The notes under the pieces: model-generated
Databases searched by the model: none
Seen by the model: only the letters and a program-made list of their open reading frames with translations
What the model was told of the DNA's origin: nothing
Part shown: one piece after another, positions 29,787 through 53,315 of the stretch
Layout: the number at the start of each line of letters is the position of its first letter
Numbering within the stretch: the first letter of the stretch is position 1
Assembly: GCA_907163375.1 (NCBI GenBank)
Contig: CAJQUW010014356.1
Location: forward strand, 167,343-231,342
DNA: 64,000 nucleotides
DNA from: Prostheceraeus crozeri
Lineage: Eukaryota; Platyhelminthes; Polycladida; Euryleptidae
Reading direction: 5' to 3'
Made by a program: the position numbers and the translations under genes

Positions 29787-29829
29787 ATAATATATATAAT
29801 ATATAATAATATATATATTTTTTCTTTTT
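29787..29829. repeat. AT-rich spacer between Penelope elements C and D
   Basis: TA/TAA repeats marking the truncation point of element C and the 3' side of element D. Confidence 0.85.
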
Positions 29830-34819: not shown

Positions 34820-34965
34820 GGTGTTCCATCGGGACGGCGGATGATGCCGTAGTGATAAGTGTGGCAAGGGAGTGTGTCATAGATTAGACCGAATCCGCTG
34901 GGGCAACTCATGTCTCATGTTGGACATTTGACACAGTTCTCAACGTAGCACTTTGAACGCCAATC
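34820..34965 (+). ncRNA. Structured leader-intron element, copy 1 (twin hairpins)
   Basis: Contains GTTCCATCGGGAC (a stem with G-U) followed directly by CGGC-GGATGAT-GCCG, then a conserved tail with AGACCGAA and CTCATGTTGGAC. A second copy with the same stems but changed loop lies at 39218-39365. It is downstream of the TATA box at 34313. Function unknown. Confidence 0.4.
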
Positions 34966-35550
34966 GGTTGAGTCATAGCTATCTTGTCATGGGTGGCCTC
35001 TAAACATCTCCATTGCAAAACGCTTGTGATTCACGGCTTGCTATCCCTCTCTACGGCTTGCTATCACGCTGATCAAAGCAACGACTTGGGATGTTTCCTC
35101 TTGTAAATAACTCCACCAATTTTTATGTCAAAATCGGGGCCCGGATACCAACACAGTGACATGACGCACGCTCTGTCCGCCCGAGGTTGGATTTGTGGAT
35201 CAAGGCCTTGGAGCTGGGATAAGATCCCCTCTGAGTAATGCCTGTAACGGATTCAAGAGCTTAACACCCAAACAGTTGCTGGCTCGCTATCAGGCCTTCC
35301 TCGTCTAGCCTCAGTAACTCAGGGTTGGCAACGTCTATCGTTTGTCATTGTAACTTGGTAAAAATGAGACGGTAACTGCAGGCATTGACGTCAAACCTTT
35401 TCGCGTCATAGGGTAACCCGTCTTTGTGTTGGGAGTTGGTAACTGAAAGAACGGTGACTGCCGATGCCCATACATGGTAAAACTGCTGTTGTCAAGTCAA
35501 AAGCATGGTCAAATAAGGAAGGTCTGAATCATGGCTTTGTGCTCGCTGGG

Positions 35551-35558
35551 TATATAAA
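35551..35558 (+). promoter_or_regulatory. TATA box of the coiled-coil gene
   Basis: TATATAAA; a leader exon of about 30 nt ends at GTCGAACG/GTGAGT (donor at 35609) and is joined to an acceptor TCTATCTTTACAG ending at 35800. The intron (35609-35800) contains three GCTATCAAA words. Confidence 0.7.
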
Positions 35559-35807
35559 CCGCGACTTTTCTCTAGTCTTCACTCCTGTTTCAAGTTGCAA
35601 GTCGAACGGTGAGTGCTCTGACAAGGTTTGCTATCAAACTTTGGGATTTAGGATAAAGCTAGGAATCATACTCTTTAAATTTGGTTGACGATTTTATTCC
35701 AACGTTTGCTATCAAATGTTTGGTGAATTAGTCTTTCAATGCATATCAGCAAGTAGTATCCTATAAACACTAGCTATCAAATTTTACTCTATCTTTACAG
35801 AATTATC

Positions 35808-37973
35808 ATGACTAAAACTCCGCGTTTTATCGTCAATTAATGCTCCTGCGGTAGATTAACAAGGGGCAGCGAATACCGTAAGCATATCAAAGAGGGGACG
35901 CTGGACAAACATGAGAGAGTGCATGTTTTTAAGGTCTGTGTTCATCATAGGGTGGTGTGTGATGAGGATGATGTTGAGGGTTTCCGGAAGGCGCACGAAT
36001 CTTGCCCATCCGGAAACATTGGAGCGCAGTCGTTTCGTGTGTGGATGAGTGAATTAATTAAGGCGAAGGAGGAGTTGAATGCAGCTGTTAGAAGTATTGA
36101 GGGTGCTGTAGCGAAGGATCGGGAGGTAGTGGTGAGTGAAGAGGAAGTAGAGGTAGAAGGAGTGATTGAGCGGGCGAGTGATGAGACTAGGAAGTTGATG
36201 GTCTCATTGTTTGGGAGTGAGTTGTCTGATGAGTCGGATGGTAAGGTGGCTGAGCCTGTAGCGACATCATCGCCTAGGAAAGAGGTGCATGATATGGAGG
36301 CGTTTGTGAGGTTGAAGGATCGTATGATGGATATGGAGAGTGTGAATAGAAAAGTTTTGAAGGAGAATGAAGAGCTGAAGGCTAAGGTTGAGGGTATAAA
36401 GGTGATGAGAGAGGAGTTGGAGGAGATGCGAGTGAAGGAGCAGGAGTGGTTGAAGGAAAGGAGTGGTATGATGAAGCGAGTGAAGGCGGTTGAGGGCTTA
36501 GAGTCGGAGTTGATGCGTGAGAAGAATGAGGTGGAGCGGATGCGAGGTGTGGTGAAGGAAGTGGAAGAGACGAAGGTAATCATCAGACAGTTGGGTAGTG
36601 AAGTGGAAAAGTTGCGAGAGGTTGAGAGAAGAGTGAAGAGGAAGAGAGTGTATGAGGTCCACCTTCCCCTCTTTGAAAACATCTGCGATGTGCCGACCCT
36701 CACGGATAGTGATGAAAATTTTCCGGAAAATTTTGAATCAACATTTTCCGTGGAAAATTATGGAAAAAATTGGAAAATTTTGGAAAATTATGGAAAATTT
36801 GGGAAAATTTTGAAAGTTTGGATTTTTTTGATAGGCCTCATAATTTGAGCGGTTCCACTGCCGAGGCAGCTTAAGTATCAATAAATTGGTTTTAAAACTA
36901 TTGATTTCATCATTATTTTGATTAAAGTTATCGTAGTAATACGAGTTCCGTCCGCGGATTTTGAACATTCCTTTGCCACCAGTGGCAATTGTGCCATTTT
37001 GTTAGCATTTTTAATTATCACACAGACACCGTTTGGGATAACGTGAATCTTGCTTTACAATAGAGGTATAATTTCATGCAATGTGAAAGATCAGGAGCAA
37101 AAATAATTTTGGAGTTGCCTGTTAGCTTGAAAGTTAAGCTTTATTGTGCAGCCTTGATCATAGTGATACAAATTCTCCATATGTTGATGAATATGTGAAG
37201 TATAAGCACACAGTCCACGCAGCATTATACATGAGCGACCATGTTGGAAGACTGCAAACTCGTGAGATATTTGGAAACTAAAGATATCTGTGATGAGTAG
37301 AAGAATATCTATGACAGTTTCTAAGTTCTGGCATATTGTCCGATCTTCGTTGAGGACAAACTGCATGCACATCTTCCATTTCTAGCTCAGATGGTTCAGA
37401 TAGTTCCAAATCGATTTCAGATCTACCCAAATGAATTTCAGACATTTCCAGATGAATTGGAGACTCTCCAGTTGAATTTAAGATCCTTTCAAAGTTGTGC
37501 TTCTGACAGATATCTGAAATTCAATTAGAGAAATCTGAAATCCATCTAATATCTGAAATTCATTTGGGATGATCTGAAATAGACATGGAAAGGGTGCAGT
37601 TGGTTCCAAAAGGTGACATACATGAATGATAGAGAAGTTTTCGGTCTTTGATTATTGCATAGTCTTTTCAAGCGACTACAACAGGTCTCCAAAACAAAGG
37701 AAAAAATGTCAATCACAAAAAAAAAAATTTCAAAATTTTCCACTGGAAAATTTTCCATTTGCATCACTACTCACGGACGATTCCAATTCGACACAAACAT
37801 GTTATGAAGGCGAAGGTGTGCGATGTCTCCACCTATCCATTAAAATGAATGGCGATTTGGAAGACTTTATCGTCCGAAAAGTTGTAAAGAAAAATCCGAG
37901 TAAGCTATTTCAACATGATCATTTGCTTGCCGCCTCTAATCTCCTTTTTTTTCTTTCAGATTTTTTGCAATAG
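35808..37973 (+). pseudogene. Polinton zinc-finger/coiled-coil protein, interrupted by a MITE and a nonsense codon
   Basis: The coding part starts at ATG 35808, eight bases after the leader-intron acceptor, but codon 11 is TAA (35838-35840). Beyond it the frame is open and protein-like: a Cys/His-rich start (CSCGRLTRG, then HVFKVCVHHRVVCDEDD) resembles paired zinc-binding motifs. Then come about 200 residues of Glu/Lys/Arg-rich heptads (LKENEELKAKVEGIKVM, EWLKERSGMMKRVKAVEGLE), a clear coiled coil, ending in a basic patch. At 36706 a 1063-bp hAT MITE interrupts it. The same frame resumes after the MITE at 37778 (Cys-containing segment, VRCLHLSIKMNGDLEDF) and stops at about 37973. I do not know the function; a structural or DNA-binding role is possible. 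Confidence 0.6.
36707..37769. mobile_element. hAT-type MITE inside the coiled-coil gene
   Basis: 1063 bp with ends TAGTGATGAAAATTTTCC...GGAAAATTTTCC...GCATCACTA and a perfect 8-bp target duplication CTCACGGA (36699-36706, 37770-37777). Rich in GGAAAATTTT simple repeats near the left end. No coding content. Confidence 0.8.
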
Positions 37974-38457
37974 TCGATGAAGAGAGTAGTGTAGGTGGAC
38001 GGAGAACGACCCATGGGCTCTTTTGAGGGCCAACCTTCTAATGCAGCTAAAGCGGTCCCAAGCCCGCCACATATCTTCGGACATGGAATGCAGAGGGGAA
38101 GAATAAATGATGAAATGGAATGAAATGGGAGGCCCCCTTGCGCCACACGCAACACATCAGACTTCTCTTCTCAGTAGTGAACAAGCTCTGAACGCTACCT
38201 AACTGTATCGAAGTCGATTGCTATACAAGTATTCAAGAAAACGTAAGTTATTAAAATCAGCAGAAAAACATAGGGGGACATGTGATGTTCCAAAAATATT
38301 TATTTCAAAAATTGAACTCAATATGATAAACCATTGATGAATAATACTACCCCGAAGGGTAACAAGTCTATCGTTTATAGAAATCAACTGCATGGTATCA
38401 GTAGAGACTCGTTACCTCTAAAGTATAGTTAGCAAAAAGTCGTCATGACAAAATACT
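37974..38457. other. Non-coding stretch
   Basis: Includes a tail-like segment GATGAAATGGAATGAAATGG (about 38108) of the kind seen at LINE 3' ends; no ORF supports a LINE here. Confidence 0.4.
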
Positions 38458-38910
38458 CTATTTGGTCTTTGATTTAACATCATTGAAACCCACTTTACTA
38501 ATAGCAATGACAATATGGTTGATTTTATTCAGAAGCAAATGATTGCCGTAACCATGAAAGTTGTCCATCCGAGAAATAATCTTCCGCAGATGTCGTGTAT
38601 AAAACTCAGAAGCATCAGTAACATATTCTTGTCTATAGGAACGAAATCGAAAGTCAACACTTTCCGCTACTTCGCCTTGTGGAAAATGAATGTAATTGAC
38701 ATGTGCAATTAAGTGAGCCTTGATGAGACTGTCTTTGAAATAAGATATCAACTCTGTAAATATTGCTCGTGTGTAGTCTAAACATGCTTCCATTTTTGTT
38801 TCGTCCCTTTGAAACTCAAGGATGTAATCTTGTATTAAGCCTCCGAAGCACTCTTGATGAAAACGAATCGTGCAATCATCATGTTTCAATGTATTGACTT
38901 CGGGCGCCAT
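38458..38910 (-). CDS. Stand-alone homologue of the polymerase N-terminal domain, copy 1
   Basis: A 150-residue intact ORF starting at ATG 38910. Its pattern matches residues near the start of the adjacent DNA polymerase and two other small ORFs of this element (48766-49212, 51464-51820). Shared landmarks in order: (I/T)RFHQECFGGLIQDYILEF, an alpha-helical stretch, LIAHVNYIHF, VDFRFRSYRQE, D.SEFYTRHLRKIISRMD, FHGYGNHLLLNKINHIVIAI. In the polymerase the equivalents are FSLERLVRDYEL, FYLTARFN, VTIRIAP, NEWIERHATYLVNNLNKF. I infer a common fold used both as a polymerase domain and as separate proteins. Function unknown; a replication accessory or competitor is possible. It is transcribed against its plus-strand neighbours. 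Confidence 0.6.
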   Translation of the reverse strand: MAPEVNTLKHDDCTIRFHQECFGGLIQDYILEFQRDETKMEACLDYTRAIFTELISYFKDSLIKAHLIAHVNYIHFPQGEVAESVDFRFRSYRQEYVTDASEFYTRHLRKIISRMDNFHGYGNHLLLNKINHIVIAISKVGFNDVKSKTK

Positions 38911-39049
38911 GGTTGAGTCTATTGCTAAACATCATGTTTGCCTAGGACGATTTCAATAACTTGTTACAAATGTGTGTGCGCACATCGGGAACTCTAGCTC
39001 GTCTGTGATTGGACGAGAGGTCTGATCCATTCACCGCTTAGGAATATCT

Positions 39050-39057
39050 TATAAAAG
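39050..39057 (+). promoter_or_regulatory. TATA box of the proline-rich/polymerase unit
   Basis: TATAAAAG followed about 50 bp later by a donor CACAAG/GTGAGT (about 39100). The following intronic DNA carries GCTATCA words and the twin-hairpin element. Confidence 0.7.
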
Positions 39058-39217
39058 GCAGTGCACCAGCTCTGTTCTTCACATTTATTTTTCACAAGGT
39101 GAGTGTCGGTGAGCTCCTGCTATCAGGTTGTTTTGACTTGCTATGAAGTTGAATAGTCTCTTGCTATCATATCTTCTGCTCATAAAACATATCATCGCTG
39201 TAATACCTCCTTTGCTC

Positions 39218-39365
39218 GAGCGTTCCTTCGGGACGGCGGGTACTGCCGTAGAGGGATTGCGTTGCACGGGTTGTTCGTCGTTTGTTAGACCGAAACCTCT
39301 CAGCCTTTGCTCATGTTGGGCGTTCGACTTCATACTCAACGTGACGCTTTCTCTCGCCAGGTCAG
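39218..39365 (+). ncRNA. Structured leader-intron element, copy 2 (twin hairpins)
   Basis: GTTCCTTCGGGAC then CGGC-GGGTACT-GCCG, followed by AGACCGAAACC and CTCATGTTGGGCGTTCGAC. Same stems and tail as the copy at 34820 with different loop bases. It lies about 165 bp after the TATA box at 39050. Confidence 0.4.
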
Positions 39366-39542
39366 AGTACTTCAGCCATTCGACAAAGGTTAGTCTTTAT
39401 GATATGGAGTAGAGTGAAATGTAACTCATTAGATGTCACTTCAATGATTGTTCCCAAACGTTGACTAGGCAAATGAAACGATTCTCATCTTTCCTTTTCA
39501 GTGATAGAAGTTTTGCAATTAATCATCTGCAATCGAACAAAA

Positions 39543-40490
39543 ATGGAATTCAACAAAGTTGAGAACTACCACATTGCTGCTGAGATGGAAAAGGCCACCA
39601 TCGAGCAATGTAAGTATTTGTATCAAGGTTGACTCTACTACTAACATCATTAGGGGAGACATCCTCATTAAAATCAAGAGCCCCTCCCTTATTTTGCTCA
39701 TGTTTAAACCGATTCCAAAGTTACCTCTGCTTATCTTTGCTGTCATTCTTTTCAGTGCATGAATGTATTCGTAATGGGGAACCCGTCCCCCAAGGAACAA
39801 TCGGGGAAGCCTATGAGCGGCTTGGCAAGTGTAAGTATCTTTAACATCTCATGTTTAGACTGTTTCAGATTCTCTGCATCATCCTTGTCTCATTATCTAA
39901 TCTCTCTTTCCTCTCTACAGACTTGGCGAAGATGAAAAAATGGGAGGAAGCCGCGAGGCGGAGATTTAATGACGAATTTCCGGCCCTACCTTCCCACCCG
40001 TCTACCTCCGTCCAAGGTGCGACCCCTCTCTCGAGCTCGGGCATCGTCATCGCCCCACCTCCACCGCCTGCTCCGCTCCCTGCACCCGTCCATGATGAGC
40101 AGCCAGTCCCTGCTCCTCGTCACCACGTCCCTCCGACACCGAAGCCCAGGATCCTTCCACTCTCGGCTCGTGTCCCTCTCCTGCCTCCTCCGCGTTCATC
40201 GGTGTTGCCGGAGATTAATTCATTAGATGGTAAGTATCCGTGATTGGGAAATAGGGGGATAAGACTTCAAACTTGAAATTATGATCAAGTTACTAATCTC
40301 GTTTCTCTTTTTCTCAACAGATCTGGCGGCCTACCTCCTGGACGGCGACGTTCCCTCCCGTCTCATCATCATCCCAGCTTCGTCACCACCACCTGCAGCG
40401 GCCGAACTCCCTCTCCTCTCCGTTCAGTCGGTGGAGAGACTGTTGGAGCAGGAGGAGTTGGAGATGGTCGGAGAGGAGAGGGAGATTTGA
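39543..40490 (+). CDS. Four-exon acidic and proline-rich protein, possibly the spliced N-terminus of the polymerase
   Basis: Exons 39543-39609, 39756-39830, 39921-40229 and 40321-40490, each bounded by textbook sites (GTAAGT donors; TTTTCAG, CTACAG and CAACAG acceptors). All three introns are phase 1. Exons 1-2 encode short helical segments (ENYHIAAEMEKATIEQ; VPQGTIGEAYERLGK). Exon 3 starts KMKKWEEAARRRF and then is a long proline-rich tract (PPPPPAPLPAP, PRHHVPPTPKPRILPL). Exon 4 is acidic and ends EEREI then TGA. Directly after that TGA, in another frame, comes an acidic stretch (VEEKDF) and the polymerase zinc fingers, so a single frameshift may have split one long protein. I infer it is a regulatory or scaffolding extension; no known domain is seen. 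Confidence 0.65.
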
Positions 40491-43400
40491 AGTCGAGGAG
40501 AAGGACTTTTGATGCCAGCGGTGTGACAGGGTCTTTGCCTCAGCCTACAGTTTGAGACGTCACACCGCTGGCCATGCCTGCAGGGGAGGAAAGCGCTGAC
40601 CCATCCCTCAACGGCCCAAGTGTGAAGGTTGTGGACGCACGTACTACAACAGCACCAACTTGCGAGTCCACATCGAAGGCGGTTCCTGTGGCAGTGTGAG
40701 GCAACCACCAACGTCATCAGGTAGGAAGCATCCTTCATCGCACGTCGGCTTTTCCTGTTCTTCGTGTCAGAAGACCTTTCCTACAGAGTTTGTTCTTTCT
40801 TCGAACACACTCTGTCACACTCATCCCACTAAGCTTTACACTGACAACAACGTCACTCTAAGGCTGAGCAAGTTTTCCCTTGAGAGGCTCGTTCGCGACT
40901 ATGAGTTAGAAAGCTCGGAAGCTGTGCAAGATATTCATCCTTTCTTGATGAATAATATAGGCTTAATACATCAAATGTTGGCGAGCTTAGATAGATTTTT
41001 GCTCAAAGGCATGTTCTATCTCACTGCTCGTTTCAATAAGGTAGACAGTAGCACGGGAGAAGTAGAGTCCACTGTGACCATTAGGATAGCCCCCTGTGCT
41101 GCTGATATCATAGGTGATGAAAACGAGTGGATAGAGAGACATGCGACCTATCTCGTCAACAACTTAAATAAATTTAATGAAACAGACAGCGGTCTGGTCT
41201 TTGATGGGATAGAGAAGGTAGACATTAAAATAAATCTTTTAGAAAATTTGCAAGGGAGCGGTTAATTCACCCTCCCCAAAGCACTGGCTAGCAAAAAGGC
41301 TGTCGTCAATGTAGAGTGTCAGTCCCAGTGTTTCAAGGATGCCGTCCTCTCCATTGCTCACTATAATGACATAGGTATAAATCGTGAACGAATCAACAAG
41401 TATCGTGAATGGGAGGATGAACTTAAGTTTGACGGGTTAGATGTCAACACATAAGATTTTAAAGGCATCGCCCAATTTGAAAAATTGAATAACATTAAGA
41501 TCGTCGTCCATCTCTGGGAAAAAGGTCTGAAGGGCGTTAGGTATAACAACCGCCAAAGTAACTTCGACCTGGTTGTCAATCTTCTCCTAGTCTATAGCGA
41601 CAACCACCCAGAATGGCATTATTGCGGCATTCCTAAAATTTCTAGATTCTATCACCACCAACAAAGTTATGATGACAAACATTATTACTGTGATCGCTGC
41701 ACACGACGTTTGACATCTAAACCATATTTTGAACAGCATTACGAGTGGTGCTCTCAGGGTAAACTTCAAATGGAGGTCATGCCCAAACATAAATTTTATA
41801 GGTATGAGGAAAACGGCAATGAGCTCAGTCCCATATGTACCATCTATGCAGACATTGAATGTTATATTGAACAATAAGACCTAAGTCATGAGCCAGCAGC
41901 CATTGCCTGTTATGAAGTTCGGCATCCATATTATAGGAATCAAAATAAAATGCATGTGTGGCAAGGCGAGGAGTGTGTTGAAAGCTTCCTCAACTTTTTA
42001 GATAGGAAAGCCCGTTTTCATCAACGGTATGAAACGGAGATGACTAGGAAACCCATGTGCTTCACAGAAGCCGATAAAATCAAATTTGATAGGACCACGG
42101 AATGTCCCCGTTGTTCATCCTTTGATGATCAGCAACATAAGAAAGTGAGGGACAATTTGCCATCTCAGTGGTAAATTTAGGTCTGCCTTATGCAGTAGAT
42201 GCAATATGAAACTTAGGCTCAAAAGGCGAACGCTCCCCGTCATCTTTCATAACTTTAAATGTTATGATGCTCACATCATCATTCGCCATGGATTTGGTAA
42301 AATGAAATCCTGGTCATCCAAAGTGATTGCACAAAGTAAGGAAAAATTTATGTGCATCACTGCCAAAGTCCAAGTCGATAAGACGAAGGAGGGGAAGCCT
42401 GTCTTCTATGACATAAAGTTTCTAGACAGTTTTCAATTTATGTCTTCTTCCTTAGTCGCGTTGGCTAATAATTTAGAAACACTTCCCCTCACTCAACATT
42501 TAAAGAAAGACTATCCCAACATAAGTGACAGTCTGATGCGACGGAGAGGGGTGTTTCCTTATAGCTATTTTAGTTCAATGGACACATTGAAAGAAACATC
42601 CCTTCCGTCCATCGATAAATTTAAAAATGATTTGACGGGTGAGGACTGTTCGCTGGATGACTATAGGCATGCAGAGCAAGCATGGTTAGAATTTGGGTGT
42701 TACACTTTTGGTGACTACATGCTTGCCTACTTAAAATTAGACGTCTATCTGTTGACTGACGTGTTTGAGACTTAGGAAAGTCACATTAGAACAGGACGCC
42801 TTAGACCCCGTCCATTTTGTTAGTCTGCCGGGTCTGTCCTATCAGTCAGCCTTCAAGATGACGAAAGAGAGCATTCATTTACTGCAATATGCAGAAATTT
42901 ACACGTTATTTGAACGTAGTATTAGGGGTGGCTTGACATTTGTCAATAAACATGTTGTCAACAGCACCCAAGACATAGGATCGACCACGTATTCAATGTA
43001 CATAGACCAAAATAATTTAAATGGGAGTGCATTATCCAAGCCTTTGCCACAATCTGACTTCCAATGGGTAGAGCCCCATGACATTGAACACTTCTCCAAT
43101 CCAGCACACATCATGGCACTGGGAGATGAGGCCGACATAGGTTATTTATTTGAAGTCGACCTCATCTATCCAGACTGTATTAAGAATAGAACCGTTGATT
43201 TTCCTCTCGCACCCGAATCTGGCATAGTCAGTCCAGATATGTTCTCTCCCTTTGTGGAAGAACACAATAAGCAGTATGAGGCGGAAAATGACTTACACTA
43301 TAGACCCACTAGGAAGTTGTTGCTCACCCAATTGAACAAGCAGCATTACATCGTGCACTATTCCATCCTCAAATTCTATCTAGGTATGGGGATGCAACTT

Positions 43401-43647
43401 GACATAGTTGATAGCCTGATACGGGAGGTAGTTCTTCATCGTCGATCAAGAAAAGAAATCAATGTAGGCACTCCCTTTAATTGCGGCTGTTTCAAAGTAA
43501 AATAGAAGAAATTAAAATAGTTTACAAAACAGCAAACGTTTCGTGACCCAGTCACAGCGTCAGTGCTAGAAGAAGACCAGCAGTACTGTGTGATTTCCTT
43601 AAATAGTAGCCTTTGACAAATCCCGACACCGCATAGCGGAGTATCGC

Positions 43648-44088
43648 TCAGGCGACCAGCTCGTGTTTGCGATTGAGCTCCGGTCTGTTCTCGCGGATGA
43701 AGCGGGCCTCAGCTAATCTGTTTTCTAAAGGTGATTTATGCTTCGCTAAAAAGTGCACACTAAAGTCAGAAATGGTCAACCTATCGCTATGTTCATTTTT
43801 AGAGTGCTCCGCAAGAGCGCTGGTTTTATTCCTAAGGGCTAGGCTACGCTTGTGTTCTTCGTAACGAATTCTAAACGGCCTATTGGTCTGACCAATGTAT
43901 GATTTGATGCAATAATTACACTTAAATTCATACACTACAAACCGGACATCGCACGGATAATTACAGTCGATCGTATCACACAGTTCACAGTTACTATGTT
44001 TATAATTAGTTTTACGAGAAAGGTATTGACTAGTAGTTTTATTGGGTTTACTTATCAACGTTACGGGCAACTTATATTTATTAATCAA
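43648..44088 (-). CDS. GIY-YIG endonuclease fragment of a Penelope-like element, left arm
   Basis: A 146-residue open frame covering a Penelope GIY-YIG nuclease: SNCELCDTIDCNYPC, FVVYEFKCNYCIKSYIGQTN, RPFRIRYEEHKRS, ending ENRLAEARFIRENRPELN. The Cys-rich start before the nuclease is typical. It belongs to a different clade from elements A-D (YIGQT, longer helix after). The upstream RT is missing because the element is truncated at the palindrome centre. Confidence 0.75.
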   Translation of the reverse strand: MINKYKLPVTLISKPNKTTSQYLSRKTNYKHSNCELCDTIDCNYPCDVRFVVYEFKCNYCIKSYIGQTNRPFRIRYEEHKRSLALRNKTSALAEHSKNEHSDRLTISDFSVHFLAKHKSPLENRLAEARFIRENRPELNRKHELVA

Positions 44089-44397
44089 ACGATTTAATTT
44101 TCTATTACAGCCATCATTAATAAAATTAATAGAGAATTTTACATTATTTTCGTTATATCTATTGTTTCTAGGCTTACATTTAATTCTTGGCTTAAGGTCA
44201 CGATTACTGTAATTATTTTTCCTTAATCTAAAAATCCATTTACAAATTTTTAAAATAGATTAAGGAAAAATATTTACAGTAATCGTGACCTTAAGCCAAG
44301 AATTAAATGTAAGCCTAGAAACAATAGATATAACGAAAATAATGTAAAATTCTCTATTAATTTTATTAATGATGGCTGTAATAGAAAATTAAATCGT

Positions 44398-44832
44398 TTG
44401 ATTAATAAATATAAGTTGCCCGTAACGTTGATAAGTAAACCCAATAAAACTACTAGTCAATACTTTTCTCGTAAAACTAATTATAAACATAGTAACTGTG
44501 AACTGTGTGATACGATCGACTGTAATTATCCGTGCGATGTCCGGTTTGTAGTGTATGAATTTAAGTGTAATTATTGCATCAAATCATACATTGGTCAGAC
44601 CAATAGGCCGTTTAGAATTCGTTACGAAGAACACAAGCGTAGCCTAGCCCTTAGGAATAAAACCAGCGCTCTTGCGGAGCACTCTAAAAATGAACATAGC
44701 GATAGGTTGACCATTTCTGACTTTAGTGTGCACTTTTTAGCGAAACATAAATCACCTTCAGAAAACAGAAGCTGGTCGCCTGAGCGATACTCCGCTATGC
44801 GGTGTCGGGATTTGTCAAAGGCTACTATTTAA
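44398..44832 (+). CDS. GIY-YIG endonuclease fragment of a Penelope-like element, right arm
   Basis: Mirror copy of the left arm, nearly identical over the nuclease core (KCNYCIKSYIGQTNRPF). A deletion of about 60 bp after SPSENR removes the LAEARFIRENRPELN segment and changes the tail. That deletion shows the two arms have diverged only slightly since the palindrome formed. Confidence 0.75.
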   Translation: MINKYKLPVTLISKPNKTTSQYFSRKTNYKHSNCELCDTIDCNYPCDVRFVVYEFKCNYCIKSYIGQTNRPFRIRYEEHKRSLALRNKTSALAEHSKNEHSDRLTISDFSVHFLAKHKSPSENRSWSPERYSAMRCRDLSKATI

Positions 44833-46314
44833 GGAAATCACACAGTACTGCTGGTCTTCTTCTAGCACTGACGCTGTGACTGGGTCACGAAACGTTTGCT
44901 GTTTTGTAAACTATTTTAATTTCTTCTATTTTACTTTGAAACAGCCGTAATTAAAGGGAGTGCCTACATTGATTTCTTTTCTTGATCGACGATGCAACTT
45001 GACAAAGTCCATCGCGCTATCCAGTTTAGGCAGAAGCCCTTTCTAAAACCGTATATAGAATGTGATAGTAAGAAACGGGCTGAATCCAAGAATCCTTTCG
45101 AAAAGGACTTCTTTAAATTTAAGAATAATGCCCTCTTTGGTGAAACCATGGAGGATGTAAGAAAGCGCATGAGCTGTCGTATCGTAACTGATCCGGAAAC
45201 GAATATCAAGTTATGTCGCTCGCCGTTGTTTTGCCACCATGATGTCATTTCCGAAGACATCACTGGTTTTAAATTGCTAAAATCTAAAGTAGAACTTTGC
45301 AAGCCCATTTATGTCGGTCAAGCTGTCTTGGATCACTCCATGTTAGAAATGTACAAGTTATTTTACCACACCTTTAAAACGTGTCTATTGATCCAACATG
45401 TGGAATTAGTGGGAGGCGATACAGACAGCTTCTTCCTAACTTTGACAACCATTAGCCAAGTCAAGCAGGACGACATTTTAAAATATTTAGCACCCAAGTT
45501 TGATAGTTCCAACTATCCCACTGACCATCCGCTTTACTCTACCACAAATAAAGCGAGGCTTGGCTGCTTCAAGGATGAGTGCGCCGGCAAACAGATAGAG
45601 GAGATGATCTTGCTTCGCCCCAAGATGTACTCCATGAAGCTAAAATCCTCAGAGCTTTCTATAAAACGGGCGAAAGGCATCTCGAAGTCAATCGTTAGAA
45701 AAATGACACATAGGGACTATCAAGATGCCTTAGATTCTCTTAAAATTAAAAAAGTAGAAATGACCATTTTAAAATCACAGTCGCATCAAGTCAGAACAAC
45801 GACGTTTAGGAAACGAGGTCTCTCAGCTTGGGAAGACAAGCGATGCTGGATGATTCCTAACCACTCATTACCGTACGGGCATCCAGACACTCATCTACCT
45901 CTACCCAAGAGACAGAAACTTTCTCCTCCTCCGTTCGGCGATGTCTGATGATGAATGCTTCCTCTCTGTTGTGGTTGATGTTTTGCTTTTTCGCTCCATG
46001 GCGTTTTTTATGGGGTGTTGTGATTGAGTGCCTTGTAACATGCGTCCAACTCCTGATCACTTCATATCATGACTTGCATATCAAGTGGTTTTTCCTGACT
46101 TTGTTTTGTCCCTGCACATGAGTGACTTTGTTTTCTCCGGTGATGTGAGCCATAAAATCTTTGTTTTCTGCTACCATCAGTATTAACTATGTGTGACTGT
46201 GATGAAATGTCTTTCATTCAATAACATATCATGTACAGACTGTCTCGTTTTTCTTTTGCCATAAATAAGGGATTCTCACTCAATAGACAGAAGTAAAAGT
46301 TTTGATCATTTTGT

Positions 46315-46540
46315 AAGATGGGTAGGGTTAGAAATAAAGTTGTTGATTGTAAAGTTAGAAATAAAATTATAACCATGTCGCTGTTTGTAAGATAGGTGAA
46401 ATATAAATGAAGTCAGAATCACTTCACTGTTTGTAAAGTTAGAAATAAACTTGATGATTGTAAAGTTAGAAATAAAGTTACAACCATGTCGCTGTTTGTA
46501 AGATAGGTGAAATATAAATGAAGTCATAACCATGTTAGAG
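46315..46540. repeat. Tandem repeat, about 111 bp x 2
   Basis: Two copies of a unit with GTTAGAAATAAA(G/C)TTG.TGATTG and CCATGTCGCTGTTTGTAAG. The unit itself contains two GTAAAGTTAGAAATAAA motifs, each with a polyadenylation-like AATAAA. Confidence 0.8.
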
Positions 46541-46700
46541 TTTGTAAGTTATCATCCTCACCAACGAATGTAGCATCATGACAATTTCTTCGGCTTAGGA
46601 AGCATCAACCACTTGGCTGACTCATGTCTATAAATAGCTCTGACTCATGAAGTGGTAAGGAGCCAGTCAGTTGGATAAGAATCTAATCAGTCTTGTTCAA

Positions 46701-46870
46701 CCTTTTCACCGACACGTGTGTGTGTGGGCGTGTCATTCAACATCGATGGCGCCTCACGTCAGACAGCGTGACCTTTTCACCGACATGTGTGTGGGTGTTA
46801 TTTATCAGACAAAGCGATGGCGCCTCACGTCAGACAGCGTGACCTTTTCACCGACAAGTGTGTGGGCGAT
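46701..46870. repeat. Tandem repeat, 71 bp x 2.4
   Basis: Copies start at 46701, 46772 and 46843 with CCTTTTCACCGACA(C/T/A)GTGTGTG. Each full copy contains GATGGCGCCTCACGTCAGAC followed by AGCGTGA. Located just past the 3' end of the TBP-like gene. Confidence 0.85.
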
Positions 46871-46908
46871 GCTTCATTGCGATGACTCATTCAAAACACA
46901 TCATGTGA

Positions 46909-47448
46909 TTAACACGATTCTATTAACTGTGACTCATACAGATAGCGCATTAAAGATTTAACAATGTCAGCTACTTTACTGATATCACGTAAACCAGTCA
47001 TGATACAATGTCCGTTGTGAAACACTGTAATATGTACAGGATGCCACTTCCGAATCAGAGCAGCAGGAAAGAGTTCAGTTTCATAAAATATACAATGATT
47101 ACTGGTTTTAATGTTGGCTAGATTCACTAACATCTTCAATTGAACAGACACTACTATATTCTTCAATGTCAGGGGACTCAGGCGGAGATGAGGCATGAGT
47201 GTTCGCATTTTCTTGACGACTTCGTAACACATGGACTGCATCACGAAATGAGAAAGGTTTCCTAGGACTTGGATTTTGCCGCAGCGAAAGATTTGAAGAT
47301 TTCGACCGTTGCTCATGCGAATGACCAACATTTGCGGACGACCGCGATGATAGACTGAATCGGGAAGATGGGTATGCATCTGTTCTAAATCGATGTCTCT
47401 TCTGAGATTCATTTCGCGCATGGCGTTGATGATGCGGATGGGGAGCAT
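46909..47448 (-). CDS. TATA-binding-protein-like protein (TBP fold, both repeats)
   Basis: Intact 179-residue ORF from ATG 47448. It covers the two direct repeats of the TBP core, which is about 180 residues in cells. Repeat 1 (about residues 14-80) has QMLVIRMSNGRNLQIF then RCGKIQVLG. Repeat 2 (about residues 92-172) has LKNIVVSVQLK, FYETELFPAALIRKW, ITVFHNGHCIMTG and a C-terminal helix. The YE-ELFP...IR and (I/V)F..G....TG blocks are strongly TBP-specific. Of the four DNA-intercalating phenylalanines, three positions hold Phe (QIF, ELFP, TVF); the first (before MLVIRM) does not. A consensus TATA box lies about 36 bp upstream of the ATG at 47484-47491, inside the end of the preceding ORF. 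By family, it should bind TATA boxes and nucleate transcription complexes in the nucleus. Inference: it directs transcription of the element's own TATA promoters. Confidence 0.75.
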   Translation of the reverse strand: MLPIRIINAMREMNLRRDIDLEQMHTHLPDSVYHRGRPQMLVIRMSNGRNLQIFRCGKIQVLGNLSHFVMQSMCYEVVKKMRTLMPHLRLSPLTLKNIVVSVQLKMLVNLANIKTSNHCIFYETELFPAALIRKWHPVHITVFHNGHCIMTGLRDISKVADIVKSLMRYLYESQLIESC

Positions 47449-47451
47449 GAC

Positions 47452-47802
47452 TCACAAATGACATGAGGGTTGAGTGAACTTCCCTTTTATACTTTTCCCA
47501 TGAGGGTTTGGAATCACAATGTAGCAGTGATCATTATGTAGAATCATCTCTTGAATGCGAATAAATACAATGCCGTCTCCTACGTTAATGACACGACAAG
47601 AGTTGGATAGGACAGCGCGATGCAACCTTCGTAGTTGAAAGCGTTCTAGAGTTATCTGAAGTTGACGTTTCGTATTATGAAATGTAACACACTGATTTTT
47701 CCATGGTACATGGAGACATGCTGATAATTTCCACATGTTTAAAGCCTGAGTGAAGAAGGGTATGCCTACGAAAGAAGAGAGAGTCATGTTCATGTGTGGC
47801 AT
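47452..47802 (-). CDS. Polinton protein of unknown function, 116 aa
   Basis: Intact ORF from ATG 47802, ending three bases before the TBP-like start codon, so the two are nearly contiguous. No domain recognised. Visible features are an N-terminal hydrophobic stretch (LSSFVGIPFFTQALNMW), beta-rich text (KLSACLHVPW; RVINVGDGIVFIRI; HCYIVIPNPHG) and a basic centre (RFQLRRLHRA). It may be a small beta-barrel, possibly distantly related to the paired proteins at 47892-48526 and 50096-50812, but I cannot align it convincingly. The TATA box of the TBP-like gene lies inside its last codons. Confidence 0.5.
   Translation of the reverse strand: MPHMNMTLSSFVGIPFFTQALNMWKLSACLHVPWKNQCVTFHNTKRQLQITLERFQLRRLHRAVLSNSCRVINVGDGIVFIRIQEMILHNDHCYIVIPNPHGKSIKGKFTQPSCHL
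47484..47491 (-). promoter_or_regulatory. TATA box of the TBP-like gene
   Basis: TATAAAAG on the minus strand, about 36 bp before the ATG at 47448, giving a very short 5' leader with no intron. Confidence 0.65.
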
Positions 47803-47891
47803 GGTGAGTGTACATTTTCTTTCTTGATACGGTGGCCATTAGGCCGTGGTCTCATAAAGACCGATGGTGCGATCTCAGTGTGTGAAGAGTG

Positions 47892-48487
47892 TTACTGTAG
47901 TTGATCATCATCAACATGGACATCATTTTTAAAGGTTATGGAGACAAGATAGGGATTCAACGTAAACAACCTTCCGTTCCTGCGCGGACCCATGTAGATG
48001 GTTTGAATTTTAATTTCGAAGGAGTAGAATCCTTTTCCCAAAATGGGGAGTGGTTTGCAATTGAGTAAGTCGAATTCGCTGCCCTCCTTTTCATGGATGA
48101 TGAGACAGTGTCTATCTATATGAACATACATGTATCGTCTTTCCATGATGGGAACTTGTGACCGCTTCCCATTGTGTCGAACAATTTCTTTGGGAATGGT
48201 GAGATTTTCTTTCAGGAATGTTTCAAGAGTATTGAATTGTAACCGTGTCCAATAGTCTAACGGCACGCACACGGCCAGTCCATACTTTGTTGACATAACC
48301 TTTAGATAATCTATCCGATGACTTGGAGTTTTATGGTCACGGCTTTTCCATGATGAGTTATCTTTTGATTGAAAGCATTTTTACCCGATGCTAAAGTAAG
48401 GGAGTTCAGTGTACCCAGTGCGAGAGCATAGGAGTTGATGGCTTCGAGCAACTGCATGGTTAGCGCAAGGACGGAAATGATTGCCAT
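47892..48487 (-). pseudogene. Paralogue 2 of the GFYSF...GP protein pair, one frameshift
   Basis: Two adjacent minus-strand frames (48526-48311 and 48296-47892) align in order with the intact 50096-50812 protein. Shared marks are the start (MAIISVLALT against MIMNVLSGIL), a (V/I)PLDYWTRLQF / IPIDNWLRQQL block, and the signature GFYSFEIKIQTIYMGP then NGRLFTLN against GFYSFHIEVPAIYVGP then NLISLN. A single frame change near 48320 separates the halves. The likely start is ATG 48487, by comparison with the paralogue. The fold is beta-rich and I infer, weakly, a single-stranded-DNA-binding or other replication-associated role. No known domain can be named. Confidence 0.5.
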
Positions 48488-48623
48488 GAGCTCAGTCTTC
48501 CGTTTTATAACCAGACCTAGCTCCAATCACATGCGTTTCCCTTTTCAAGTTTTCCCTGTCTTTGTTATGTGACAAAGAGTTATCACACGTGAACTTTTGA
48601 CTGCGTGGGTGGAAACCTTTCGT

Positions 48624-48632
48624 ATTTATATA
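48624..48632 (-). promoter_or_regulatory. TATA box upstream of the paralogue-2 gene
   Basis: TATATAAAT on the minus strand, about 140 bp before the inferred ATG at 48487. Confidence 0.6.
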
Positions 48633-48765
48633 CAAAGTCGTTCTAGTCCTCACAAAGTCTTCATTTATCTAACAAAGAGCCTGATAGTAATGCACAAACC
48701 GCAATGACTAATGTTGCTCCATACACCATTGCAAAACACTCAGTGAAAAGAAATCTTTATTGCAT

Positions 48766-49212
48766 CTACACAATGTGTCGACCATCAAACAAAGACGTGG
48801 ATGTAAACACACTCAGTTGAATTATGATATGTTTAACAACGTACGCATTTCCTTCCAACGTCTCTTCTATTCTCTCCATAATTTTCTCCATATGACGACC
48901 ATAAAATTGATCACTAAGAGTAATCCATTCTGTGCAATAAGATCCAAAACGAAGTGGTTTTTTCAAATCTTTCAACTCTATATAAGCAACGAGTCTACCC
49001 TTTACATCTTGAGGTTGTAAACTCTCCATCAATCTTTTGAAGAGAGAAAGGCTTTCAGTGAGCACTACTTTCATATCATTCATCTTCATTTTAAATGTAA
49101 GTTTCCAATCTTGTAAAAATCCATCGAATCCTTGTTGATCAAGTGTCAAATGACACATGTGGTTACTTAAGGTACGATGTGCCATCATAAACGTTGTGAC
49201 TATAGATTTCAC
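48766..49212 (-). CDS. Stand-alone homologue of the polymerase N-terminal domain, copy 2
   Basis: Intact 148-residue ORF. The likely functional start is one of the two Met codons at residues 9-10 (MMAHRTL), since the similarity to the other copies begins shortly after. Landmarks in common with 38458-38910 and 51464-51820: a hydrophobic opening strand, FDGFLQDWKLTFKMK, a helix, DVKGRLVAYIELKDL, RFGSYCTEW, SDQFYGRHMEKIMERIEE, and NAYVVKHIIIQLSVF. DVKGRLVA is shared almost exactly with the copy at 51.6 kb. Function unknown. It lies between the paralogue pair and the exonuclease-like gene on the same strand, as part of one cluster. Confidence 0.6.
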   Translation of the reverse strand: MKSIVTTFMMAHRTLSNHMCHLTLDQQGFDGFLQDWKLTFKMKMNDMKVVLTESLSLFKRLMESLQPQDVKGRLVAYIELKDLKKPLRFGSYCTEWITLSDQFYGRHMEKIMERIEETLEGNAYVVKHIIIQLSVFTSTSLFDGRHIV

Positions 49213-49358
49213 ATTGCTTCAATGACTTTCACTATGAATAAAACAGAAATAACAATCATGTTCCACTGTAAGTTTATTCAACACCAGACAAAATTTACAA
49301 GTACAGAATACACTTCATAAAATGATCATCGTTCATTCACAAGGAGTAAAGTAATGCT

Positions 49359-49922
49359 TTACATAGACCCATGCTGTTGCCAATAATATAGATACAGTTC
49401 ATAAACGTCATAGAGACTACAATGCCAGCGTGAAGAGAGTTTTGAAATGTAGGTAGCTTTATTTCTAGTATTACAATGGGATGGTGGTCTGTAGAGGGGA
49501 TGTCTCTCACCGAAACATATAGCCATGTCAAAAATCATTTCATCTCTAAACTTCTTTTGATCACAATGCATATGATAGTCTTGTCTTACACGATCTACCC
49601 AACATGGTAAATATAAATTATCAATGTGCAACTGAAGTGTTGCTGCTTCTCGTTCAGAATCATTTCCTAATATTTTAACAATATGAAAACCTGACAGCCA
49701 CTGTTTGAAATCACTTATCAAATACGTTTCATTTACAAATCCAATATAAATCAAAATAGAAGGATCAAGTCCATGCACATGACGCCGTGACCATTCGTCT
49801 TTGTGTGGAGGACAGTAGGCAAATCTATGATATACACTAACAACAGTTTGATCACTTTCTCTCATTGCAATAGCACTCAATTTCTTCATGGGTGTTCCCT
49901 CACTGTCTATGAAGATGACAAC
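49359..49922 (-). CDS. DEDDh-type 3'-5' exonuclease-like protein
   Basis: Open frame from a 3' splice site (TTTTTGATATTGTAG, exon start 49922) to the stop at 49359, about 187 codons; the first Met is at 49889. I extend it to the splice site because those 11 codons hold the catalytic ExoI strand VVIFIDSEGTP (D-x-E). Next comes HVHGLDPSIL, the family's .HGI....L element, then FKQWLSGFHIVKILGND (ExoII aspartate). Near the C-terminus is HCSLYDVYELYLYYW, the ExoIII H-x4-D motif. Order and spacing fit DEDDh exonucleases of about 180 residues. By family it would remove nucleotides from the 3' end of DNA or RNA. In this element it could proofread, process replication ends or degrade host nucleic acid. 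The upstream exon is uncertain; the RING-like ORF just before it is a candidate. Confidence 0.65.
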   Translation of the reverse strand, partial: VVIFIDSEGTPMKKLSAIAMRESDQTVVSVYHRFAYCPPHKDEWSRRHVHGLDPSILIYIGFVNETYLISDFKQWLSGFHIVKILGNDSEREAATLQLHIDNLYLPCWVDRVRQDYHMHCDQKKFRDEMIFDMAICFGERHPLYRPPSHCNTRNKATYISKLSSRWHCSLYDVYELYLYYWQQHGSM

Positions 49923-49944
49923 CTACAATATCAAAAAGACTTCA

Positions 49945-50124
49945 TTACAAGATAATACATTGAGCAGGAACTTTACAAGAATGTCTGTCCTTTACATAAC
50001 AAAAAATACATACAACATGATTACAATGTTTTATTTGAACATAACGCGCAAGACCGCGTTTTCCACATTCACTACATACTAACTGATTACAATACTTAAG
50101 ATTTCTCTTTGGTGGTAACACCAT
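49945..50124 (-). CDS. Small RING-like zinc-finger ORF
   Basis: A 59-residue ORF from ATG 50124. The pattern is C-x2-C (VCSECGK), 12 residues, C-x-H-x2-C-x2-C (HCNHVVCIFC), then two more cysteines (HSCKVPAQC), close to a C3HC4-type RING finger. It overlaps the last 29 bases of the 50096-50812 gene in another frame. It ends 23 bp before the exonuclease exon, so it might be spliced to it and serve as its N-terminus. If independent, an E3-ligase-like or zinc-binding role is possible. Confidence 0.45.
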   Translation of the reverse strand: MVLPPKRNLKYCNQLVCSECGKRGLARYVQIKHCNHVVCIFCYVKDRHSCKVPAQCIIL

Positions 50125-50812
50125 CTTTCTTTGATGCGCGACGACGTTTAGGTTTAGTGACAGGTTCTTGACACTCTTTGACACAAGAATCAATGACTTT
50201 CTCAATGTGATCAAGACCTGTTAACTCAGGTTGATGATGAATTTGAGCAATGCGCAAATTGAGAGAAATCAAATTACCGTCAGATTGATGAGGTCCCACA
50301 TAAATAGCAGGCACCTCAATATGAAAGGAATAAAAACCTGCATCTAGCGATGACAATTCTGTTTCAACTGTCACTCCCGAAGTGACTTTACAATACTTGC
50401 TTTGCAAAATATAGCAGCGAGTGCCGCGATACAAAGGTTTACTATAAGAAGTTTTCTTTTCTGGCCACAACTGTAATAGTTCAGTAGGAATAAGAGCCCT
50501 TTGCCTCACAACGTCTTCTAAAATGTCAAGCTGCTGACGCAACCAATTATCAATAGGGATACTCAGGTTTTCACCGCAACGATTTACCTGCGTATCCACT
50601 TTTGGTAAGTATACCGCCGGCGTTTGAAGATAGAGTCGAACACCGTTGTAGCGCACTTGTTGTTTGTAGGTAGGATAGCTGTGAATTACCTCTTCAATTT
50701 TCGGATTCCACAGCTCGAGATGTTGAGGATTCAGTGATGCAGCAGTTGGAGTAGGATTCATGGCCATGGCAGTCTGTAACGAAAGAATACCACTAAGTAC
50801 ATTCATGATCAT
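50096..50812 (-). CDS. Paralogue 1 of the GFYSF...GP protein pair, intact
   Basis: A 238-residue ORF from ATG 50812 (the frame extends 23 codons further to another ATG at 50881; I prefer the internal start because the paralogue at 47.9-48.5 kb begins similarly). Middle: a beta-rich region (QQVRYNGVRLYLQTPAVYL), then IPIDNWLRQQLDILEDVV. The conserved core is GFYSFHIEVPAIYVGP followed by NLISLNLRIAQI. The tail is lysine/arginine-rich (KPKRRRASKKD), a likely nuclear localisation or nucleic-acid-binding tail. I do not recognise the family. A single-stranded-DNA-binding protein is my best guess from the beta-rich body and basic tail, held loosely. Confidence 0.55.
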   Translation of the reverse strand: MIMNVLSGILSLQTAMAMNPTPTAASLNPQHLELWNPKIEEVIHSYPTYKQQVRYNGVRLYLQTPAVYLPKVDTQVNRCGENLSIPIDNWLRQQLDILEDVVRQRALIPTELLQLWPEKKTSYSKPLYRGTRCYILQSKYCKVTSGVTVETELSSLDAGFYSFHIEVPAIYVGPHQSDGNLISLNLRIAQIHHQPELTGLDHIEKVIDSCVKECQEPVTKPKRRRASKKDGVTTKEKS

Positions 50813-50890
50813 CAGAGAAAAGAAAATTGTTAGCTTAGCAGTGACATATGAGGTGGCCCTTAAGAGGACCTTTTGGAGCATTCACATGAT

Positions 50891-51124
50891 TTAAAGCTTA
50901 TCACCAAAGTCTAAGTCTTCGTCATCATCCAGTAAATTAAATGTCTTGGGCTTAGGACCCGAATTAAGTTTCAATTCCCTAAAAGACTTAAAGGTAAAGC
51001 GTCTAGGTGGTGGAGGTGGCGGTGGTGGTGATGGTTCAACAAAATAAGCTTGTACAATCATCGGCCACACACTATCCTGCGTCTCTCTTCTAAAATGCTG
51101 GTAAGGTTTAGGCCACGCAGTCAT
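50891..51124 (-). CDS. Small proline-rich protein with acidic tail
   Basis: A 77-residue ORF from ATG 51124. It has a run of eight prolines (EPSPPPPPPPPRRF), a basic/aromatic middle (RFTFKSFRELKLN) and an acidic C-terminus (LLDDDEDLDFGDKL). The frame is open further upstream, but a TATA box lies in that part at 51252-51259 about 130 bp before this ATG, which supports the internal start. The composition suggests a disordered adaptor or transactivator-like protein. No domain recognised. Confidence 0.5.
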   Translation of the reverse strand: MTAWPKPYQHFRRETQDSVWPMIVQAYFVEPSPPPPPPPPRRFTFKSFRELKLNSGPKPKTFNLLDDDEDLDFGDKL

Positions 51125-51251
51125 GACACTCACTTGAAAATTTGCAAACAGGATTGAATCAGACAAAATTGAGACGGAGAATGCCTTTCGCAAGTTACAC
51201 ACGCTTTCCAAGTCAAGAGAATGAAATGAAGAGAAAATGGCGAGACGTCTG

Positions 51252-51259
51252 CTTTTATA
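51252..51259 (-). promoter_or_regulatory. TATA box of the rightmost minus-strand unit
   Basis: TATAAAAG on the minus strand with a leader of about 100 nt before ATG 51124. Confidence 0.6.
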
Positions 51260-51463
51260 GTCTCCTGCGAATCCACATTTGACACTATGAGAGCCAATCA
51301 GAGACCTCCGTTTCTCCCCTGACTTCGTTGCGGCAGGGAAAAGGAGGCACGCGGACGTCTGACTCATGAATGCCTTTCCCAAAGCTTGTAGTCAAATCTA
51401 GTTTAGCACATTGAGTTGAATATGAATGTGTTTTATGCGACATAAGAGCAAGTTGGATCCTTG

Positions 51464-51820
51464 CTAATGAAATGAATCTAGTCGAGATGCAATTTTCGCC
51501 ATGTGTCGCTGATAGAAATCTTTGGGATCATGCATCGTCTCTGCAGAATACGATGCAAAATGAAACACTACACGCTCACCTGCATGTTCATCAGTCACTT
51601 TCTCAAATTCAATCTCTGCAACTAATCGTCCTTTCACATCTTTATTTATCAAACTGTCCATGAGCTGTTAGAAAACGAAGTAACCTTTAGCGATAGCAAA
51701 TTCTAAGTCTGCCTTTTCATGATGAAATGAGATGATGTAGTCCCTAATCACACCACGAAGACTTTGTCGATGAAAACGTAGTGAAAAAAATTCATTCGTA
51801 AACTCTACTGCTTCTGTCAT
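51464..51820 (-). pseudogene. Stand-alone homologue of the polymerase N-terminal domain, copy 3
   Basis: The frame from ATG 51820 is interrupted by one in-frame stop at 51668 and ends at 51464. The text before and after the stop fits the family: FSLRFHRQSLRGVIRDYIIS, then DVKGRLVAEIEFEK, VVFHFASYSAETM, PKDFYQRHMAKIASRLDSFH. The last is strikingly close to copy 1 (FYTRHLRKIISRMD, FHGYG), but the ORF stops before the GYGNHLLLN tail. It is the gene nearest the right terminal repeat. Confidence 0.55.
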
Positions 51821-51880
51821 CTTTCTTCCTTTCACTTTGGAGACATAGCATGAATGACATTCAGGCGTAGAATGGCACGC

Positions 51881-53309
51881 TGATTCCAAATCTGGTCTCT
51901 GTTTTCCCATCCGAGGCGTCGTTCACCCGCTAGAGCGATTTTCGTAAAAATTCTAACTCTGTCGTTTTTTCGCCAATGTCCAAAACAAAATGACGTCTCA
52001 CCTCTAAACGATGGCAGATGGGAACAAGCCGTGTCTTCCATTGAATTTGTCTCATTCCTAGCTTTCAAATGAGCTATTGCACGACTTTCTACAATCTCTA
52101 ACACCAAAGTTGGAAGTTTGACAGGAGGGGGGGGGGGGTCAGAACTTTTTCTCTCCGATTTTGCTGGAAAGAAGTTCCTAGACCCAAAAGTGGTCAAAAC
52201 GTCCGAATTTGCACTCCATTTTCCCATCCGAGCACTCCTTCATGTCGAAAAACGACTTTTCTCATCCCAAAACATCCAACACTTGACGTTTCCAACTCTG
52301 ACGTTTTCCTGCCATTTTCCTCCCTAAACCCAGGAAAATAGGACCAAACTGAGCTTTCCACTGCATTTGTCTCACTCTTAGTTTTCAAATGAGCTATCAC
52401 ACGACTTTCTACGATCTCTAACACCAAAGTTGGAAGATCGCTGCCGAGGGGGGAGGGTCAGAACTTTTTCTCTCCGATTTTGCTGGAAAGAAGTTCCTAG
52501 ACCAAAATTTCGCGTAGATTCCGAATCTTGCACTCCATTTTCCTATCCGAAAACTCCTTCATGACGAAAAACGACTTTTCTCATCCCAAAACATCCGAAA
52601 CCCGCCCTTTTCCAACTCTGACGTTTTCCTGCCATTTTCCTCCCTTAACCCAGGAAAATGGGACCAAACTGAGCTTTCCACTGCATTTTCTCACTCTTAG
52701 CTTTCAAATGAGCTATCACACGACTTTCTACGATCTCTAACACCAAAGTTGGAAGATCGCTGCCGAGGGGGGTGAGAACTTTTTCTCTCCGATTTTGCTG
52801 GAAACATCCTTCCTAACCCAAAAGTTAACGTAGATTCCGAATCTGGCCTCCGTTTTTCCATCCGAACCCTCCTTCTTGGTGAAAAACGACTTTTCTCATC
52901 CCAAAACATCCAACACCCGCCCTTTTCCTACTCTGCCGCTCCACTCCTTGCCTCTCAGGAAAACTCCTCCCGCCTTCCTTCCCCACCCAAAATTTCACGC
53001 AGATTCCAAATCTAAACTCCACTTTCACATCCAAACCCTCCTTTATGACGATTTCCAACTTTTCTCATCACAAACACCACCAACACCCACCCTTTTCTCA
53101 TTCTATCCCTCACACATTCCTATCACCTTCCTTCCCATCCCTTGCCTCACACTTCCTCCTTCCTTCCTTCCAGAGGGGGGGTAGGGACCCGTTTCCTCCT
53201 CTCGGACCCATTCCTCCCAACACATCCTTGGCGAACTCCCTGCCTTCCAGAGGGGGGGATGACTCATCCTTTCACATTTTGCACTTGAATTTGGGATGGG
53301 CTTACTACT
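51881..53309. repeat. Right terminal inverted repeat of the Polinton, expanded
   Basis: Complement of the left repeat, about 1.43 kb. It is longer because a block of about 310-330 bp is present nearly three times (listed next). Confidence 0.8.
52070..52800. repeat. Tandem block inside the right terminal repeat
   Basis: CAAATGAGCTAT(T/C)(G/A)CACGAC followed by TCTAACACCAAAGTTGGAAG and a G-run occurs at about 52070, 52385 and 52710. The left terminal repeat has one copy (about 33770-33850). Confidence 0.8.
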
Positions 53310-53315
53310 ACCGGA

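Follow-up and report, generated by a model that had tools for sequence, protein, structure and literature searches.

A divergent TATA-binding-protein-like gene in Polintons of the flatworm Prostheceraeus crozeri suggests that these small elements steer host transcription to their own genes

Background

We know of no account of how Polintons (Mavericks) control their own genes. Vertebrate Mavericks have (AGT)2//(ACT)2 ends and 6-bp target duplications, and a further gene, 'pm', is reported in them with uncertain function (PMC8097293); the TATA-binding protein (TBP) is not named among their eight core genes, and TATA is absent from the main text of that paper. The present study concerns a TBP-like gene in a Polinton-type element of the polyclad flatworm Prostheceraeus crozeri, contained in a stretch of 64,000 nucleotides (the window; GCA_907163375.1, contig CAJQUW010014356.1, positions 167,343 to 231,342, forward strand), where a first-pass annotation made from the letters had proposed a TBP gene carried by a Polinton. 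The gene product has the TBP fold and retains DNA-contact and TFIIB-loop residues; the gene lies in a Polinton neighbourhood, is under purifying selection, and belongs to a clade of its own. Its presence suggests that these small elements steer the host transcription machinery to their own genes.

Giant virus, asfarvirus, and mirusvirus genomes are far larger than Polintons. Virus-encoded TBPs have been described from seven families of large DNA viruses, three known earlier and four added (PMC11410667), from mirusviruses (PMC10132985), and from asfarvirus as B263R (PMC5825884). TBP mimics are also encoded by beta- and gammaherpesviruses, among them ORF24 of Kaposi's sarcoma-associated herpesvirus (KSHV; PMC12529657, PMC13345323), which is described as being without the acidic TFIIB-contact residues (PMC12529657) and as having a separate polymerase-binding domain (PMC12529657, PMC13345323). 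No title or abstract opening among the literature matches listed describes a Polinton TBP; with the subscription literature mostly uncovered, a prior report is possible. Where Polintons and the TATA-binding protein are mentioned together, the text concerns algal elements of putative mirusvirus origin, mirusviruses, or, in a review, two unrelated uses, and neither TATA nor TBP occurs in the main texts of PMC11071308 and PMC11071296.

Results and discussion

Identity and fold of the TBP-like protein

The gene and its two repeats were placed using Pfam, PDB, AlphaFold2, Foldseek, and VIA-align as follows.

46909..47448, minus strand: TBP-like gene, 179 aa
47203..47439, minus strand: TBP repeat 1, approximately residues 4-82, with Pro38 in place of the first wedge Phe
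46933..47169, minus strand: TBP repeat 2, residues 94-172, with Asn97, Phe127, Phe143, Thr151, and the YE-x-EL loop kept

The open reading frame (ORF) of 179 residues is intact as first annotated, with the correction that it lies on the minus strand, the plus strand having several stops, and it contains both repeats together with the motifs KNIVVSV, YETELFP, and VFHNG...TG that had been listed for it. The Pfam TBP profile scored 77.4 bits in two stretches, against a cut-off of 22.9. Up to E=10, a phmmer comparison with PDB sequences returned 35 distinct chains, and 34 of them are named TBP, TFIID factor, or TBP fusions; the alignment of the remaining one, 4wzs_D (ECU04_1440 protein), with the host TBP query spans all 150 residues of the latter. 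TBP was the top match over both repeats in searches by sequence and by fold, the outcome for which the first-pass annotation had proposed a profile or structure search, and the two-repeat saddle fold is present. Among PHROGs there was a single weak match for the TBP (E=0.0098, function unknown), plus one polymerase match.

Conserved and changed positions were tallied over 74 family rows, each denominator being the rows with a letter at that position. The roles attached to these positions are those that we take them to have. For the Phe, the Asn, and the acidic TFIIB contacts they agree with PMC12529657. The minor-groove Asn is kept at both sites (59/59 and 72/73), as are the second, third, and fourth wedge Phe (72/72, 74/74, and 73/73), in line with the three of four intercalating Phe counted at first. 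The acidic loop for TFIIB contact (YE-x-EL) retains its Glu in 71/74 and 73/74 rows and its Leu in 72/74. Changes are found in the first repeat, where the first wedge position has Pro instead of Phe in 66 of 69 rows, Thr is replaced by Leu, Met, or Phe in all 72, and the Val beside Asn is Met in 61 of 64, whereas the Thr of repeat 2 is retained in 72 of 73. The protein is therefore called TBP-like and not a canonical, four-Phe TBP. It shares with cellular TBP and TRF2/TLF the two-repeat fold, the minor-groove Asn, three of four wedge Phe, and the TFIIB loop, but is only 18-25% identical to them in structure alignments and differs in the Phe and Thr of the first repeat; its ORF is intron-free, whereas the host TBP is split over exons. 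Like the herpesvirus mimics, it would be a TBP-like domain from a DNA element using host RNA polymerase II, but unlike KSHV ORF24 as described (PMC12529657, PMC13345323) it has the acidic loop and little beyond the TBP core.

Copies and lineages in the genome

The genome (2.05 Gb in 14,165 contigs) was searched with the window protein, and the best 150 of 11,358 candidate copies, here termed lineage A, were 97-100% identical to it, 148 of the 150 being stop-free. A Pfam TBP search of the same genome (150 scored places) recovered the host TBP (C9306; exon pieces, canonical sequence), a gene that we take to be TRF2-like from its resemblance (C3829), of a type not known outside animals, and further TBP lineages. 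Identity to the window protein is 53-55% for B, 36% for C, and 42-43% for D. With a distant metagenome relative, P0067, as query, 150 places with identities of 41-46% were obtained; they should hardly overlap with the lineage-A list, since the window protein scores 112 bits against P0067 and the lowest listed place 114.9.

The expectation that orthologues would lie beside the protein-primed DNA polymerase B (PolB) gene in other Polintons held in lineage A, where PolB sequence stands beside TBP in 19 of 20 sampled regions (the exception is L009, and in L020 about 3 kb of other DNA separates the two), and failed in the divergent lineages, where a protease adjoins instead. This comparison covers this one genome, and as to the ends of the other elements, repeat sequence was noticed in some lineage-A regions. 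Seven divergent places were fetched (L032, L033=L042, L035, L038=L043, L039=L041, L040, and L056), and in all seven the gene next to TBP, and facing it, encodes an adenovirus/Ulp1-type protease; a conserved capsid-like gene comes next. In lineage A, by contrast, TBP faces PolB. On the other side of TBP, the four longer divergent stretches have a protein starting FYHVLPSN or a variant of this. In lineage B (L042), integrase and protease lie in the same stretch as TBP and exceed the Pfam cut-offs (rve E=1.5e-13, Chromo 1.5e-7, Peptidase_C48 8.4e-5); the lineage-D protease falls below them (C48 E=0.01). The conserved protein of 428-432 aa beside the protease had no Pfam match and is presumed to be capsid-like from its position and a resemblance. 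No match to the neighbour proteins of the divergent lineages was found in the host TBP and TRF2-like loci (about 3 kb each).

In three lineage-A places, L016/L017 (C6222; one palindromic place viewed twice), L021 (C6234), and L023 (C381), the PolB end is inverted tail-to-tail, and in the first two TBP stands on both sides of it; the arrangement looks as if it were the product of snap-back replication.

Descent and selection

Of 76 candidates from a protein search, 70 were accepted at E<=0.01; these metagenome proteins all have a TBP domain, with identities of 38-99%. A maximum-likelihood tree of 83 rows groups the 68 family rows in a single clade (100/100) on a stem of 3.2 changes per column, separate from human TBP, the TBP of the host, three archaeal and ten IMG/VR TBPs, several of the last being long branches. 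The tree was built without the partial rows of lineage C and TRF2, five family rows of less than 145 aa, and the IMG/VR loci L046 and L050 (of twelve). The protein has in common with the TBPs of giant viruses, asfarvirus (B263R), and mirusviruses a TBP fold encoded by a DNA virus, but the ten IMG/VR TBPs in the tree all fall outside the Polinton clade. The family was not found in IMG/VR, phage records, or GTDB genomes, and PolB and one neighbour gave nothing as IMG/VR queries; the IMG/VR and GTDB scans may miss distant relatives because they start from few short exact patterns. The link between the TBP family and Polintons was established in this one genome.

Among 25 lineage-A copies, the ratio of nonsynonymous to synonymous polymorphism (pN/pS) was 0.17 overall; the part that shares its sequence with another ORF (see below) gave 0.19 and the rest 0.13. 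Pairwise figures of this kind are not independent. Distinct variants outside the overlap comprised 14 synonymous, 8 nonsynonymous, and 3 stops, which differs from the nonsynonymous share of 79% expected from site counts that disregard transition bias (p about 2e-5). Between D and D2, nonsynonymous (dN) and synonymous (dS) divergence were 0.087 and 0.344, and outside the overlap 0.129 and 0.478. Judged from these sequences, a divergent TBP is under purifying selection in several Polinton lineages.

The element in the window

The window copy was delimited by its inverted terminal repeats and target duplication, and contains the following features.

33242..53309, no strand assigned: Polinton-type element, 20,068 bp
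33242..33876, plus strand: left terminal inverted repeat, starting AGTAGTAAG, 635 bp, 97.3% identical to the opposite end
52676..53309, minus strand: right terminal inverted repeat, ending CTTACTACT, pairing with the left repeat
33236..33241, plus strand: 6-bp target duplication ACCGGA, left copy
53310..53315, plus strand: 6-bp target duplication ACCGGA, right copy
40600..45948, plus strand: PolB gene, broken, convergent with TBP (PF03175 and reading frames)
about 43409..44990, no strand assigned: Penelope-like insert inside PolB, in inverted halves with 514-nt arms and a short flanking direct repeat
47892..48296, minus strand: Polinton ORF of unassigned function upstream of TBP, with homologous DNA in copies and a protein match in L034 and L036
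49359..49922, minus strand: Polinton ORF of unassigned function
50096..50881, minus strand: Polinton ORF whose product is weakly similar (24-26%) to that of 47892-48296, via matches in L034 and L036 at the gene of that type

The element has the AGT-AGT terminal inverted repeats and 6-bp target duplication of Polintons/Mavericks, and PF03175 matches one PolB fragment (42206-42775, E=2e-7). It resembles the Mavericks of PMC8097293 in its AGT-AGT...ACT-ACT ends, 6-bp duplication, size range, and PolB, and lineage B (L042) also has the integrase, protease, and capsid-like gene. In the window element none of these three was recognisable, either by Pfam on 20 ORFs or by tblastn with the lineage B-D proteins. 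The copy is a Polinton-derived, incomplete element. Its polymerase is ruined, as had been noted, with no open frame above 320 aa and an insert that we take to be Penelope-like GIY-YIG; this insert is missing from all 14 sampled regions that span its site, and elsewhere PolB is open over more than 1,000 aa in 5 of 20 sampled regions.

A repeat lies at 46327-46551, between the ends of PolB and TBP, and the number of its tandem pieces varies among copies. By eye, the minus-strand ORFs 38458-38910, 48766-49212, and 51668-51922 are mutually alike and resemble the N-terminal part of the PolB region. Outside the element, several fragments of Penelope-like reverse transcriptase and GIY-YIG were seen by eye in the ORF list at 23482-31095.

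Overlapping reading frame and promoter motifs

Two features adjoin the start of the TBP-like gene.

47108..47838, minus strand: ORF overlapping TBP from upstream, broken into two frames in the window (47452-47838 and 47108-47530), the 3' part overlapping the TBP ORF in another frame
47484..47491, minus strand: TATAAAAG, 43 nt before the TBP ATG, within the overlapping ORF

The overlapping ORF is one frame of 228 aa in L011 and covers about 340 nt of the TBP gene in a different frame. Homologues with the common C-terminal motif PFSF or SFSF ... SIE are found at the corresponding position in lineages B, D, and D2 (L056:1371-2060; L041:2159-2821; L042:1603-2205). No homologue under E 0.01 was obtained among 65 candidates, no Pfam family exceeded its cut-off, there was no PDB match, and the structure model was useless (predicted local distance difference test, pLDDT, 42); that the product might be PC4-like is a guess.

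In 24 of 25 lineage-A copies, the block TATAAAAG precedes the TBP ATG by 43 nt, as it does in D and D2; it is at 46 nt in two of three lineage-B places and absent at the one lineage-C start. Its conservation does not prove a promoter, because a conserved peptide of the overlapping ORF is encoded there too. The pattern TATA[AT]A[AG] occurs within 70 nt before TBP starts in lineages A, B, D, and D2 (4/4) and not in lineage C (0/1), and before 3 of 23 non-TBP starts, compared with 2.8% of random stretches; this slight excess (p about 0.03) means that the other Polinton genes are not all TATA-free. The herpesvirus-type TATT[AT]AA was found upstream of none of 19 other Polinton ORFs, and the borderline hexamer AAGCAA upstream of 6 of the 19, versus 2.7% at random (p 8.6e-6 before correction for 4096 tests).

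Proposed role and alternatives

The reading that we favour, and consider somewhat better than an even bet, is that these Polintons use their own divergent TBP, selected in several lineages, to recruit host transcription to Polinton promoters. The host machinery would read the TBP gene, and the protein, from its retained residues, would bind and bend DNA at Polinton promoters. By way of the second repeat, which is intact, and the TFIIB loop, it may recruit TFIIB and RNA polymerase II of the host; an element of about 20 kb, with no RNA polymerase gene seen in it, could in this way direct transcription to its own genes. As the first repeat is changed (Phe to Pro, Thr to Leu, Val to Met), its DNA preference should shift from the canonical TATA box, and as the acidic loop is kept, unlike in KSHV ORF24, it should work with host TFIIB.

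Several observations weigh against this reading. Known TBPs bend DNA with four Phe (PMC12529657), and the first of these is lost. Upstream of the 19 other Polinton ORFs no clear shared promoter motif was found. The three lineage-B pairs gave dN/dS of 0.26 to 0.52 on few changes, which is weak evidence of selection. An in-frame stop is present in 3 of 24 fetched lineage-A copies; the copy count is a lower bound biased to good copies, since it comprises the 150 best-scoring of 11,358 candidates. The window copy, having no recognisable integrase, capsid, or protease, is at best non-autonomous.

A more specific form is put forward tentatively, as possible but doubtful: an animal Polinton clade with a two-stage switch, in which the canonical TATA box of the TBP gene, inside the overlapping gene, would be read first by host TBP, and the Polinton TBP with its re-tuned repeat 1 would then take TFIIB and RNA polymerase II to mostly TATA-less Polinton promoters.

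It is unlikely that the protein is a decoy whose TFIIB loop sequesters host TFIIB, dampening host transcription during Polinton activity with no activation of Polinton promoters; the strongly kept loop and the lost first wedge residue would suit such a role, but a decoy would have no need for the two minor-groove Asn and the three wedge Phe that the whole family conserves. Slightly less probable again is recruitment of the fold for bending DNA while the element replicates, integrates, or is packaged, with no part in transcription, which agrees with the position of TBP next to protease and capsid-like genes in three lineages and next to PolB in lineage A but leaves the conservation of the TFIIB loop with no evident reason. 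A copy or pseudogene of host TBP captured by chance was rejected as very improbable, for although vertebrate Mavericks carry accessory genes (PMC8097293), the host TBP and TRF2-like gene are separate from the family, which is one deep clade under purifying selection with TBP in the same gene neighbourhood across the divergent lineages. The refuting case named in the first-pass annotation, a host TBP pseudogene absent from related elements, does not hold, and its reading of the gene as carried by a Polinton is supported.

Conclusions

The occurrence of a TBP in an element of about 20 kb indicates that a basal promoter factor can belong to the kit of a small mobile element. The Polinton TBP offers a direct handle on Polinton promoters and is a natural TBP whose two halves are unevenly changed, and its clade brings a deep branch into the debate on the origin of viral TBPs. 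If the two-stage switch were true, these Polintons would be the smallest elements known to us with their own TBP, and may represent an early branch of the viral TBPs.
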